A stretch of DNA of 27,898 nt from IMG/VR virus record IMGVR_UViG_3300045579_000014, positions 1 through 27,898 of that record. One strand, 5' to 3'. The notes beneath the pieces are model-generated. The model made no database searches. It had not been told where the DNA came from and saw only the letters and a program-made list of their open reading frames with translations. Each line of letters opens with the position of its first letter. The stretch's first letter is position 1. A program made the position numbers and the translations under genes. Below, one piece after another: positions 18,028 to 26,474 of the stretch. This DNA is from a virus.

Positions 18028-18210
18028 TTATTTACCTTTACTCATTTTCTTTAAAGTTTGTACTAGTCGTGCACGTTGACCCATTTTACCTGGTTTCTTA
18101 GCTGCTTTAGCTAACATACCAGCAGGAATTGTTTTACCTTCTTTTACCCCTAGAGCTTTTCTTAAGGCTCCTGGTTTTTTTATTGCTTTTTGAATCCACT
18201 TTTCTGCCAT
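18028..18210 (-). CDS. Small highly basic conserved phage protein
   Basis: A 60-residue, very basic protein (AEKWIQKAIKKPGALRKALG, later GQRARLVQTLKKMSKGK). I recall near-identical short proteins with WIQKAIKKPGALRK in many unrelated tailed phages, usually within virion gene clusters; the function is not established, and DNA or RNA binding is a guess from charge. A long purine run (GGAAAGAAAGGAAAAAAG) before the ATG is the ribosome site. That same purine run encodes GKKGKK of the overlapping small ORF at 18134-18280. Confidence 0.75.
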   Translation of the reverse strand: MAEKWIQKAIKKPGALRKALGVKEGKTIPAGMLAKAAKKPGKMGQRARLVQTLKKMSKGK

Positions 18211-18280
18211 TCTTTTTTCCTTTCTTTCCGTATTGTTCTGCGTTAATAAATGCTGGAGTATTACTTGTGAGCATTGACAT
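18134..18280 (-). CDS. 48-residue ORF with a capsid-like N-terminus
   Basis: A small ORF starting at 18280, with its A shared with the TGA stop of tail tube A (TGATG), an arrangement typical of coupled translation. Its first 17 residues, MSMLTSNTPAFINAEQY, match 13 of 17 residues of the major capsid protein N-terminus in this window (MSQLTSNTTAFIEAQQY). The DNA of the two starts differs at many third positions, so the similarity is at protein level. After residue 17 it turns into a basic tail (GKKGKKNGRK) and overlaps the 60-residue basic gene in another frame by 77 bases. The last half may be constrained mainly by that other gene. Function unknown. Confidence 0.55.
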   Translation of the reverse strand: MSMLTSNTPAFINAEQYGKKGKKNGRKVDSKSNKKTRSLKKSSRGKRR

Positions 18281-19056
18281 CAATACCCTCCCATCCTAGT
18301 TGTTTTTCCTTTTCGTCCATAATTAGGATATTTAATACCATTACTAATCTTCCAAGCTTCCTGACTCATCTTACGCTTTTGTGATACAGATATCTGTTCA
18401 GCTTTAGGATTAGGAAGTTGTTTTAAAGTTAAGAATGCAGCTGATTTAGCTTCATTAAGTAGATAAGTAAACATCTGAACAGGTAGATCAGGAGTAAATG
18501 TATCTGATAGTGTAAAAGCTACAGATCGTTTACCATGACATTGTGTTTTACTATTTTGTAAAGAAGATTCTACAGCAGAGTTATAAGCATCAAATACCAC
18601 ATAGTCATCATCAAATGATGTAAAGTAAGCTGGAGCTCTATCATCATAGACATTAATCTTAATACCAGTAGAGTCTGTAACAACTGTGATTTTTGAATCA
18701 GTGCTTAGACGTTGATCTGTAATATCAAGAAACTCTTCTGGAGTTTTATAGATGATCTTAGTGAATCTGTTACGAGTTTCTCCAGGTTTCTTACAATCAT
18801 ATTTAATCCATTTAAGATCAATGATTGTTTCAGGGAGTCTCATATGAGTAGGTCTAGCTACTGTACCACTAGTACCTAACTGAAATAATTCATATAGCCA
18901 AGGATAGTCTTTACCATCTACAATGTTGTAGTAAGTAGACTTAACGAGTTGAGCTACTTGTAATGACTCTACACTATCATTAATAGAGTTAACTTCATCA
19001 GAATCCATATCGGACATGATGTCTTGGACAATTTCAAGTAGTGTCATCTTAGCCAT
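18280..19056 (-). CDS. Tail tubular protein A (gp11-like)
   Basis: A 258-residue protein of the gp11 family that forms the gatekeeper ring between portal and tail nozzle (T7 gp11 is 196 residues). The N-terminal part (MTLLEIVQDIMSDMDSDEVN, then ESLQVAQLVKSTYYNI) matches the helical start usual in marine homologues. The middle holds WKITYxTPEEF-like sequence (KIIYKTPEEFLDI). The C-terminal helix QISVSQKRKMSQEAWK and the final YPNYGRKGKT are also typical. It is longer than T7 gp11, as in other marine phages. It lies after the jelly-roll protein gene and before the small ORF that overlaps its stop. Confidence 0.88.
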   Translation of the reverse strand: MAKMTLLEIVQDIMSDMDSDEVNSINDSVESLQVAQLVKSTYYNIVDGKDYPWLYELFQLGTSGTVARPTHMRLPETIIDLKWIKYDCKKPGETRNRFTKIIYKTPEEFLDITDQRLSTDSKITVVTDSTGIKINVYDDRAPAYFTSFDDDYVVFDAYNSAVESSLQNSKTQCHGKRSVAFTLSDTFTPDLPVQMFTYLLNEAKSAAFLTLKQLPNPKAEQISVSQKRKMSQEAWKISNGIKYPNYGRKGKTTRMGGY

Positions 19057-20202: not shown

Positions 20203-21186
20203 TTAGTATGTAGAACCGCTAGTTAAAATAACACCAAGTGTATCAACACGTTGGGCACCAAAACCGAAACGAGAAGTAACTTGATACTTATCAGCACGTT
20301 CTTCGTTGTCTCTCCAACCTTCAGTCTTAGGAGCACGTCTCCAAGCATGCATGATTGGTTTTGTTGAGTCATCAGATACGCACATAAATACGTTAGCTAC
20401 GTCACCGATCTCTGCTGTATCGTTTGCTAAGCCATATGAAGAAGCATTTAATGCCTCTGTAGCTGTCTTAACTGGTAAACGATTAGAAGTCCAGATGTCG
20501 AAACCAAAGATGTTTTTAACAAATTTGTGATCTTTAGCAAAACCTTCTGTAACAATACCTTCGAACATTGGGTTGTTAGATACGTTAACTAAGTTTTGAA
20601 TGCTATTTAATGTTGCTTCAACGATTGGATCAACAATAGCGATACGACCTGCTGATGGAACATTAGCTTTATCAAATGCTAATTTCATAGCAATGAAGTC
20701 AGATAATGTCATAACGCGTGTAGATGCAGAAGCACCACCAGCTACCCAACGATGTGGACGGCCGTTAACTAAGTTTACGTTAGCGTTAGTTTGAGCAGCG
20801 TTAGCTACAGATAAGAAACGTGATTCGTGGTTTTCACCAAGAGCACGTGTTGATTCCATTGCACGCATAGACATTAATGAGTCTACTTGAGCACCATCTT
20901 CACGGAGGTCGTCAGACACTTTCCATGCATCACCAACGTAATCAGTGATAGAAAGTGTAATGTTACCTGTGTCGATAGGGTTAAAGTTTAATGGTGTATC
21001 TTCAGCTGCATCTTGAATTGTTACAGTACCAACTGTTTTAATGTTTAAAGTAGTGCCAGAACCGAAGTCTGATACATCTCTCCACATACCTTCAGGTAGT
21101 AAGAAATCATGTAAGTTATCAAGAATAAACTGAGAATACTGTTGTGCCTCAATAAAGGCAGTTGTATTGCTAGTTAATTGTGACAT
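20203..21186 (-). CDS. Major capsid protein (gp10-like)
   Basis: A 327-residue HK97-fold capsid protein (T7 gp10A is 345). The N-terminal arm begins SQLTSNTTAFIEAQQYSQF and continues ILDNLHDFLLPEGMWRDVSDF, a pattern typical of marine podovirus capsids. Later segments (LRVSDYVGD-like SITDYVGDAWKVSDDLREDG, NNPMFEGIVTEGFAKDH, and the aromatic end TSRFGFGAQRVDTLGVILTSG) also fit. It follows the scaffold gene by ten bases and precedes a decoration-like gene and a terminator. Codon use contains more C-ending codons (for example AAC, GAC, TTC) than neighbours, as expected for the most highly expressed protein. Confidence 0.93.
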   Translation of the reverse strand: MSQLTSNTTAFIEAQQYSQFILDNLHDFLLPEGMWRDVSDFGSGTTLNIKTVGTVTIQDAAEDTPLNFNPIDTGNITLSITDYVGDAWKVSDDLREDGAQVDSLMSMRAMESTRALGENHESRFLSVANAAQTNANVNLVNGRPHRWVAGGASASTRVMTLSDFIAMKLAFDKANVPSAGRIAIVDPIVEATLNSIQNLVNVSNNPMFEGIVTEGFAKDHKFVKNIFGFDIWTSNRLPVKTATEALNASSYGLANDTAEIGDVANVFMCVSDDSTKPIMHAWRRAPKTEGWRDNEERADKYQVTSRFGFGAQRVDTLGVILTSGSTY

Positions 21187-21195
21187 GTTTTTTCC

Positions 21196-21903
21196 TTAGT
21201 TTGATAAATTTAATTTAACTTTTTCACCAGCTATTTTCCAAGCGTTGACTAAGTCTTTCGTAGTAGCTCCTTGTTTAACTCTAGCAGATAATTGGCTAGG
21301 GTCAATCTTATTATTAAGAGCTTCTGTGTTTACTGTACTATTAGGTTTGCCTGCTACAGGAGCAGATACTCCTTCTAGTCCAGCTAGCTTTAGTACAATC
21401 TTAGGTGAACTGGCTGCCAAGCTATTTAATTGTTGTACAGTTAATCCACTTTCTTTAGCAACAGTATTATAGACTTCTTCAGCTTTTTGACCATACTTCT
21501 CAGTAAACTTTGACGCTACTGATTCAGCATTAGTCTTAGCTGCTCTTTGTCTTTCCTTATGCTCAAGAGTTTGATCAACGATTTGCATTAATTTATCTTG
21601 ATCAAATTCAGATCCAGCAGGGGTAGCCTGTGGTTGAATTCCAGACTTAATTTCATCTAGAAGTTCTTCAGTTGTTCTACGTTTAGCTAGTTCTTCTCTA
21701 GCAGCAGCTAACTCAGACTCTAAAGTTTGAATATGCTTCTGTGCGTGAGGAACTGACTTTAACGCATCTTCTACTGATGAATACTTCTTACCATCACCTA
21801 CTAATTCAGCAGCTTCTGTCGGAATCTGGAATGCAGGTTGTTGGTTATCTTGGTTCTGAACTTCGTTGGTACTTGGTTCAGGTGTTTTATTGTCTTCAGA
21901 CAT
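21196..21903 (-). CDS. Capsid scaffolding protein (gp9-like)
   Basis: A 235-residue, acidic and helical protein directly upstream of the capsid gene, the fixed position of the scaffold in T7-like phages (T7 gp9 is 307). The N-terminus is disordered-looking (EDNKTPEPSTNEVQNQDNQQ), followed by YSSVEDALKSVPHAQKHIQ and a coiled coil LESELAAAREELAKR, then a second helical half ending in KDLVNAWKIAGEKVKLNLSN, a basic amphipathic end expected to bind coat protein. The ribosome site AAGGAG is strong. It overlaps the 75-residue upstream gene by eight bases. Confidence 0.88.
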   Translation of the reverse strand: MSEDNKTPEPSTNEVQNQDNQQPAFQIPTEAAELVGDGKKYSSVEDALKSVPHAQKHIQTLESELAAAREELAKRRTTEELLDEIKSGIQPQATPAGSEFDQDKLMQIVDQTLEHKERQRAAKTNAESVASKFTEKYGQKAEEVYNTVAKESGLTVQQLNSLAASSPKIVLKLAGLEGVSAPVAGKPNSTVNTEALNNKIDPSQLSARVKQGATTKDLVNAWKIAGEKVKLNLSN

Positions 21904-25501: not shown

Positions 25502-25633
25502 TTACTTCTTTTTAGGAAAACCCTTTTTCATATTTGCATATGCTTCAGGAGTTATTGTACTCTTCTTTTTAGAACGAGAAGTTCCTTTTTTCTTACGTTG
25601 ATTAATATTGTAATATAAACCTTTTTTTACCAT
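25502..25633 (-). CDS. 43-residue basic conserved phage protein
   Basis: A very basic ORF, start ATG at 25633 (VKKGLYYNINQRKKKGTSRS), ending KKGFPKKK. The KKGLYxNINxRKK and AYANMKKGFPKKK parts resemble tiny proteins I recall in many tailed phages near terminase and structural genes; function unknown. The ATG overlaps the stop of the upstream gene (ATGGTAA), and its TAA directly abuts the terminase ATG. Likely translated by coupling. Confidence 0.7.
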   Translation of the reverse strand: MVKKGLYYNINQRKKKGTSRSKKKSTITPEAYANMKKGFPKKK

Positions 25634-25901: not shown

Positions 25902-26024
25902 CTATTTCTTTTTGCTTTTAGCAGGTTTAGCCATCATCTTTTTACCTGATTTGCTTGCTGCTTTTTTAGCTGCTGCCATACCTGATTTAGTATAAGCATA
26001 CTTCTTTCCGTTTACCATTGGCAT
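25902..26024 (-). CDS. 40-residue Lys/Ala-rich protein
   Basis: An ORF with start ATG at 26024 (MPMVNGKKYAYTKSG), then an Ala/Lys-rich helix (MAAAKKAASKSGKK) and a basic end. A good ribosome site (AAAGGAGAA) precedes the ATG. The pattern MPxVNGKKYAYT resembles tiny proteins I recall from other phage genomes; function unknown. Too short and biased for a firm family call, but start context and spacing support translation. Confidence 0.65.
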   Translation of the reverse strand: MPMVNGKKYAYTKSGMAAAKKAASKSGKKMMAKPAKSKKK

Positions 26025-26035
26025 AATATTCTCCT

Positions 26036-26474
26036 TTAATTAAAGTTTTTAGTTCCACTACCATTTATTACTAACGCTTGTTTACGAGGTTTACTACCCT
26101 CTTCACAAAAACTAATGTGTATCCAACGATCAAACTCCAAAATAACTTGATCATATGGAATATCACTTGATATAATCTTTTTAATAATGTCTTTAGGTGT
26201 TCCAAAGGATGGACAGATAATATCTGCCGCCAATCCTTTCGTGTGTTGACTTGTCGGTTTGCTTCCCAAGTAGGTTATTAACCAAAATAGACCGATAGCC
26301 ACTATTAACAATAACAGGTTTTCCAAGTAAGGCTCTGACACGTTCTAGTCCTTCAGCTAAAATTTTTAGATTAGTTAAAATCAAAGGGCTAGCTGGAGTA
26401 TTATCTATTCCGTGCCTATCTGCTAGTTCTGATGCTGTTAATTCTTCAAACGTAAAGTGCTTTGTTAACTTCAT
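26036..26474 (-). CDS. Peptidase M15 endolysin split by a +1 frameshift
   Basis: Two overlapping reading frames together make one M15-type (D-Ala-D-Ala carboxypeptidase-like) endolysin of about 145 residues that would cut peptidoglycan peptides at lysis. Frame 1 starts at 26474 (MKLTKHFTFEELTASE) and carries the family start and VNSGYRS...VNNLLG. The zinc ligands lie in frame 2: SQHTKGLAAD (His and Asp) and WIHISF (His). One base too many in the GGG at 26267-26265 separates them; removing one G restores LLGSKPTSQH. It may be an assembly error, a real inactivating mutation, or +1 recoding at CTT-GGG. It overlaps the holin gene by four bases. Confidence 0.8.

Follow-up and report, generated by a model that had tools for sequence, protein, structure and literature searches.

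The window, a 27.9 kb virus fragment, comes from a Zobellviridae-like podovirus, as judged by the homology of its major capsid protein (MCP) and by the same order of morphogenesis genes as in annotated relatives. The MCP was 77-78% identical to those of the Methylophilales phages MEP401 and MEP402 and about 51-58% identical to those of classical members of the family; the classical Zobellviridae compared infect Vibrio, Klebsiella and Pseudomonas. On the minus strand, the terminase and portal genes are followed by a small gene, the scaffold and MCP genes, two small genes, the adaptor, the arm copy, basic genes and the gene for the head-closure protein. The features of the locus are as follows:

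18028..18210, minus strand: overlapping basic gene encoding the WIQKAIKK protein, a stand-alone module whose C-terminal half is fused to the arm in region L093
18137..18280, minus strand (stop codon 18134-18136): arm-copy gene, 48 aa, a capsid-arm copy plus a basic tail (ORF call; homologues in 87 of 97 distinct regions)
18230..18280, minus strand: arm copy, residues 1-17, MSMLTSNTPAFINAEQY (13/17 identical to the MCP start; pN/pS 0.14 in the window's clade)
18137..18229, minus strand: basic tail, residues 18-48, GKKGKK...GKRR (last 74 nt shared with the next gene)
18280..19056, minus strand: head-tail adaptor gene, its stop overlapping the arm-copy start (PHROG 7592 'tail protein', E 1e-87; homologues annotated 'head completion adaptor' or 'adaptor')
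18286..18292, minus strand: ribosome-binding-like motif GGGAGGG, read from the sequence within the final adaptor codons, just upstream of the arm-copy start
20203..21186, minus strand: MCP, HK97 fold (Pfam PF25209, E 1e-11; PHROG 267; structural matches)
21136..21186, minus strand: the copied original, MCP N-arm residues 1-17 (sequence match to the arm copy; predicted helix)
21196..21903, minus strand: scaffold protein, likely partner of the coat arm (PHROG 7931; homologues annotated scaffold)

The arm-copy gene encodes the protein MSMLTSNTPAFINAEQYGKKGKKNGRKVDSKSNKKTRSLKKSSRGKRR (translation of 18137-18280, minus strand), with a predicted pI of 11.6 for the entire 48 residues. Its start, MSMLTSNTPAFINAEQY, shared 13 of 17 residues with the MCP start, MSQLTSNTTAFIEAQQY, and the two starts lie 2,906 bp apart on the minus strand, as the original prediction had described for a 48-residue ORF at 18134-18280 with a counterpart 2.9 kb away. 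At the DNA level, 35 of 51 bases were identical. The codons of the two arms differ, as had also been predicted, because third positions agree at just 7 of 17. The window contains 887 start codons followed by 17 open codons, and the runner-up to the arm copy shared 5 of 16 residues after Met with the MCP start; the best match in 30 shuffled windows was 6 of 16. Chance is therefore ruled out as the source of the likeness.

The arm-copy gene is placed for translation with the late structural operon, and its ATG overlaps the stop codon of the adaptor gene (TGATG). This junction had been noted in the original prediction, in which the upstream gene was called tail tube A; the stop overlap is present, but the name does not hold, as the gene is a head-tail adaptor according to PHROG 7592 and annotated homologues. 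The arm-copy ORF matched no family model in PHROG or Pfam, in line with the earlier remark that no described role was known for such a mimic, and tblastn of the ORF against phage records returned MCP starts only. Searches with two fusion versions gave no matches, for which low-complexity filtering is probably responsible.

The WIQKAIKK protein (18028-18210, minus strand) is the product of a small basic gene scattered over unrelated viruses, with relatives in Pelagibacter and Rhizobium phages and in Thermus virus IN93, which are very different viruses. At the C-termini of the adaptors (18280-18340, minus strand, in the window, and in relatives), a conserved YPNYGRK is followed by basic tails that vary and often end in GRY, GGY or PNY. 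They look like the YGKK beginning of the arm-copy tails, and in some cases like their GY end.

Distribution of the arm copy and exchange of its tails

Queries with the arm-copy ORF, the MCP, the MEP402 homologue and an alignment of copies, together with annotated phage regions, yielded 97 distinct regions downstream of the adaptor, most of them from metagenomic contigs. An arm copy was found in 87, starting near the adaptor stop in 85 (mostly overlapping it) and lying behind an extra gene in two (L027 and L029). Rates that rest on ORF-based searches are biased. As the arm-copy ORF was itself a query in several of the searches, the main rate was taken from the distinct regions retrieved by MCP similarity alone, 42 of 44 of which contain the gene. 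True absences were L037 (MW202697), L101, L106, L193 and six classical Zobellviridae. In a separate set of 59 classical Zobellviridae loci no arm copy was found, with a best score of 29 and a median of 16, while arm copies scored 32-65 in the same register; the shortest and most diverged copies score lower than this and were recognised by motif and position. Most apparent absences in the score scan were such shorter copies (MLTSNTPAFINAQQY and similar). A Shine–Dalgarno-like core precedes 73 of 85 homologue starts, compared with 11% of random positions.

The arm-copy gene is a conserved family of Zobellviridae-like podoviruses, short-tailed aquatic phages, and reaches far beyond one genome. 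The MSxLTSNT-type start looked for at this locus in related phages is kept in them. Direct homologues at the same locus are present in the cultured Methylophilales phages (MEP402 gp39 and MEP401 gp37); they differ from the window gene in their tail and in their TTG start, and are annotated as hypothetical protein only. In L027 and L029, the additional gene between the adaptor and the arm copy encodes a protein beginning MGKFNYDI.

A total of 67 distinct tails followed 35 arm variants, the arrangement of one tag on diverse bodies known from T4-type internal proteins. The tails were 18-55 residues long, contained 31-61% Lys/Arg and had a net charge of +6 to +19. In the tree, tails switch between close relatives while the arm stays, so the tail is an exchangeable module. 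The MAIKEYGG module is the arm tail in L092 and L136; L046, L072 and others carry it as a gene of its own (E 8e-16), and relatives of the module occur in many other viral contigs. The tail of L093 matches the C-terminal half of the WIQKAIKK protein, and that shared by L173, L185 and L194 matches the MKTMKKKPM ORF, which stands alone beside the arm copy in L100, L110 and L184. Judging from these matches, some tails are relatives of stand-alone basic phage genes. The arm-copy gene encodes a two-part protein, in which a conserved copy of the capsid N-arm, about 17 residues long, precedes a strongly basic tail that is interchangeable, and the predicted fusion of a partial capsid-arm duplicate to a basic tail is supported.

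The original prediction had also suggested that the protein could act at the portal/tail vertex or link the tail to the head. Such a protein would fill the arm-binding sites that are vacant where a penton gives way to the portal, or bridge the portal/adaptor and the shell. The gene lies directly behind the adaptor gene with an overlapping start in nearly all relatives, and the adaptors themselves end in basic YGRK-type tails like the YGKK start of the copies' tails. However, this adjacency, the sole pointer to the vertex, is a weak guide to location, and L027 and L029 have an intervening gene. The tails have no portal-specific features and are swapped for basic modules of unrelated viruses. 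We consider a position at the vertex unlikely. The copy may compete for an arm-binding site, another role raised in the prediction.

Two stand-alone Lys-rich ORFs were found near the terminase gene of the window (25502-25633 and 25902-26024, both minus strand). The ORF at 25902-26024 weakly resembles the arm-copy tails of L139 and L142, and the related slot in L046 and L072 holds a MAIKEYGG-type module, which is fused to the arm in L092. A peptidase/endolysin-like gene at 26036-26474 (minus strand) is split over two frames in the window. It is a single frame in 18 relatives, where the halves are joined over 18 or 21 nt, and the window has 19 nt; this points either to an error of assembly or to a mutation that disrupts the gene in this contig.

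Constraint on the arm and its capsid counterpart

Simple pairwise counts gave a pN/pS of 0.14 for the arm codons in the window's clade, outside the WIQKAIKK overlap, 0.31 for the arm over all copies and 0.16 for the MCP arm itself. The tail, which overlaps the WIQKAIKK gene in the window's clade, gave 1.36 and shows no constraint in its own frame. Protein-level selection on the arm, as originally proposed, is supported by these counts: the arm lies upstream of the gene starting at 18210 and is under purifying selection there. At positions where copy and MCP have an identical residue, the codon is identical as well in 362 of 678 cases, compared with 332 expected from codon usage. Because pN/pS is low and codon sharing is hardly above expectation, the likeness of the arms is attributed to constraint on the protein and not to recent DNA copying; recent gene conversion between MCP and copy was rejected on the same codon counts. 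A neutral relic of a chance partial duplication would fit the window's tail, which mostly overlaps another gene and is unconstrained in its own frame, but not the arm outside the overlap, nor the retention of the gene in 42 of 44 MCP-selected regions and of a ribosome-binding motif at 73 of 85 starts. This origin is contradicted by the substitution pattern of the arm and is very improbable.

The MCP sequence begins MSQLTSNTTAFIEAQQYSQF. Single-chain AlphaFold modelling of the MCP reached a pLDDT of 43 with 51 close sequences and of 70 with a broader alignment, and the model matched the capsids of cyanophage A4, T7-like phages and P22 structurally. Residues 1-28 were modelled with low confidence, and a helix was predicted at residues 9-24. 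A search of solved structures with the single MCP sequence gave no match, and with the MCP profile a weak match to the cyanophage A4 MCP. According to the model, the MCP has an HK97 fold and the copied stretch is its N-arm. The arm-copy protein shares only these first 17 residues and has none of the fold domains, and the likeness ends at Tyr17.

Across 43 distinct MCP/copy pairs, F11 and Y17 were invariant (43/43), and N7, T8, A/S10, I/V12 and Q16 nearly so. Glu13 was present in the MCP of all 43 pairs, compared with Asn or His at that position in 40 of the 43 copies. Position 13 tolerates change, since the MCP of L193 itself carries His13. The MCP arm and the copy of the same phage were slightly more alike than random pairs (9.02 vs 8.50 of 15; 0 of 5000 permutations, in a test that ignores phylogeny). 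For example, TANT occurs in the MCP and the copy of MEP402, and TGNT in those of L186. Because phylogeny is not taken into account and not all pairs track, the tendency of arm copies to follow their own MCP is counted as suggestive only.

Both arms might bind a shared third partner, such as a host chaperone, the portal or the terminase, rather than coat or scaffold, and their likeness would then reflect that partner. Diverged copies (e.g., MLTTDTSFINKEKY in L085) retain only T, F, I/V and Y, which amounts to a short motif. Most copies, however, retain much more of the arm, the arms tend to follow their own MCP (phylogeny ignored), and there is no candidate partner. We regard a shared partner of this kind as improbable.

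Possible docking of the arm copy in the phage head

The coat N-arm of P22 is a helix inside the procapsid. With its acidic residues it holds on to the helix-loop-helix at the scaffold C-terminus, and upon maturation it reaches into the adjacent subunit (PMC9965877). The coat N-arm of 80alpha is likewise in contact with the scaffold C-terminus, and CpmB of SaPI1 competes there (PMC5644958, PMC12749128). By analogy with these systems, the arm copy may be a docking tag that carries a basic, DNA-binding tail into the phage head, a reading that we hold tentatively, at somewhat less than even confidence. The free arm peptide would take the place of a coat arm, or would bind the same partner and ride on the scaffold, and either route would put the basic tail inside the head. 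There the tail could touch the packaged DNA and either neutralise it or hold it at the wall; that the tails bind DNA is inferred from their charge only. The arm would be conserved because it must fit, and many tails would be acceptable because the tail needs mainly charge.

Several observations argue for a docking tag. The arm is conserved at the protein level with independent codons, the likeness stops at Tyr17 and is followed by 67 tails of net charge +6 to +19 that are swapped between close relatives, and some tails correspond to stand-alone basic genes elsewhere. In addition, the copied stretch is the N-arm, which in P22 and 80alpha lies inside the procapsid bound to the scaffold C-terminus, and the T4 internal proteins share the layout. 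Against a docking tag, the close relatives L037, L101, L106 and L193 manage without an arm copy. As 40 of 43 copies have Asn or His in place of the Glu13 of the MCP, the copy would be an imperfect substitute for scaffold binding, and this change mildly favours docking on the coat over docking on the scaffold.

The same contact would allow a different function, in which a soluble arm competes with the coat for the scaffold C-terminus and tunes nucleation or aids scaffold release without being a virion component. In both P22 and 80alpha it is the coat N-arm that meets the scaffold, and competition by SaPI1 CpmB at the coat/scaffold contact alters capsid size (PMC5644958, PMC12749128). Comparison of scaffold C-termini in these phages revealed a conserved SARV..GA(S/T)TKDLV.AWK.AGEKVK with several Lys/Arg. 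However, competition for the scaffold leaves unexplained the basic tail on every copy and the borrowing of tails from stand-alone basic genes, and the acidic Glu13 is lost in most copies; we consider such a regulator rather unlikely. Returning to the docking tag, we suggest, a shade more tentatively than the docking itself, that a phage lineage turned its coat N-arm into a detachable tag on a separate gene, joined it to unrelated basic tails and so set DNA-binding peptides on the inside of its own head wall.

Comparison with known systems and significance

The cargo-loading peptides of encapsulins are short peptides that dock cargo on the inner face of an HK97-fold shell, as proposed here for the arm copy. 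Unlike the arm copy, they are not known to be derived from the shell protein's own arm, and no virus genome is involved. The internal proteins of T4 resemble the arm-copy protein in that they are small and carry one conserved N-terminal, capsid-targeting sequence on diverse bodies, and this tag directs them into the prohead (PMC3012670). In contrast to the tag proposed here, no origin as a coat N-arm copy is reported for the T4 tag (PMC3012670), and T4 bodies include folded anti-restriction proteins, whereas the arm-copy tails are all short and Lys-rich. CpmB of SaPI1 is likewise a second protein competing at the coat N-arm/scaffold contact, which the arm copy may share (PMC5644958, PMC12749128); CpmB takes the scaffold's side of the contact, while the arm-copy protein mimics the coat's side and is the phage's own. 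The fusellovirus protein VP2 is small, is part of the virion and has homologues in unrelated viruses (PMC9608457). The WIQKAIKK protein resembles VP2 at its N-terminus, although the Pfam match (PF25632, 16.9 bits) lies under the cut-off of 27 for membership, and VP2 has no capsid-arm tag.

Layouts of tag plus cargo and competition at the arm/scaffold contact are already known. In a limited search of the open-licence literature, no published description of such a capsid-arm copy was found, and we know of no phage gene described so far that copies the coat side of this contact. Since the cultured phages MEP401 and MEP402 carry homologues, mass spectrometry of virions is straightforward. If the proposal is true, a natural competitor would make the coat-arm/scaffold contact testable, and a 17-residue tag would be available for loading cargo into capsids. 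It could also explain small Lys-rich genes in some phage structural operons, and it would mean that cargo can be addressed to an HK97-fold shell in a new manner, with the shell protein's own arm as the address.
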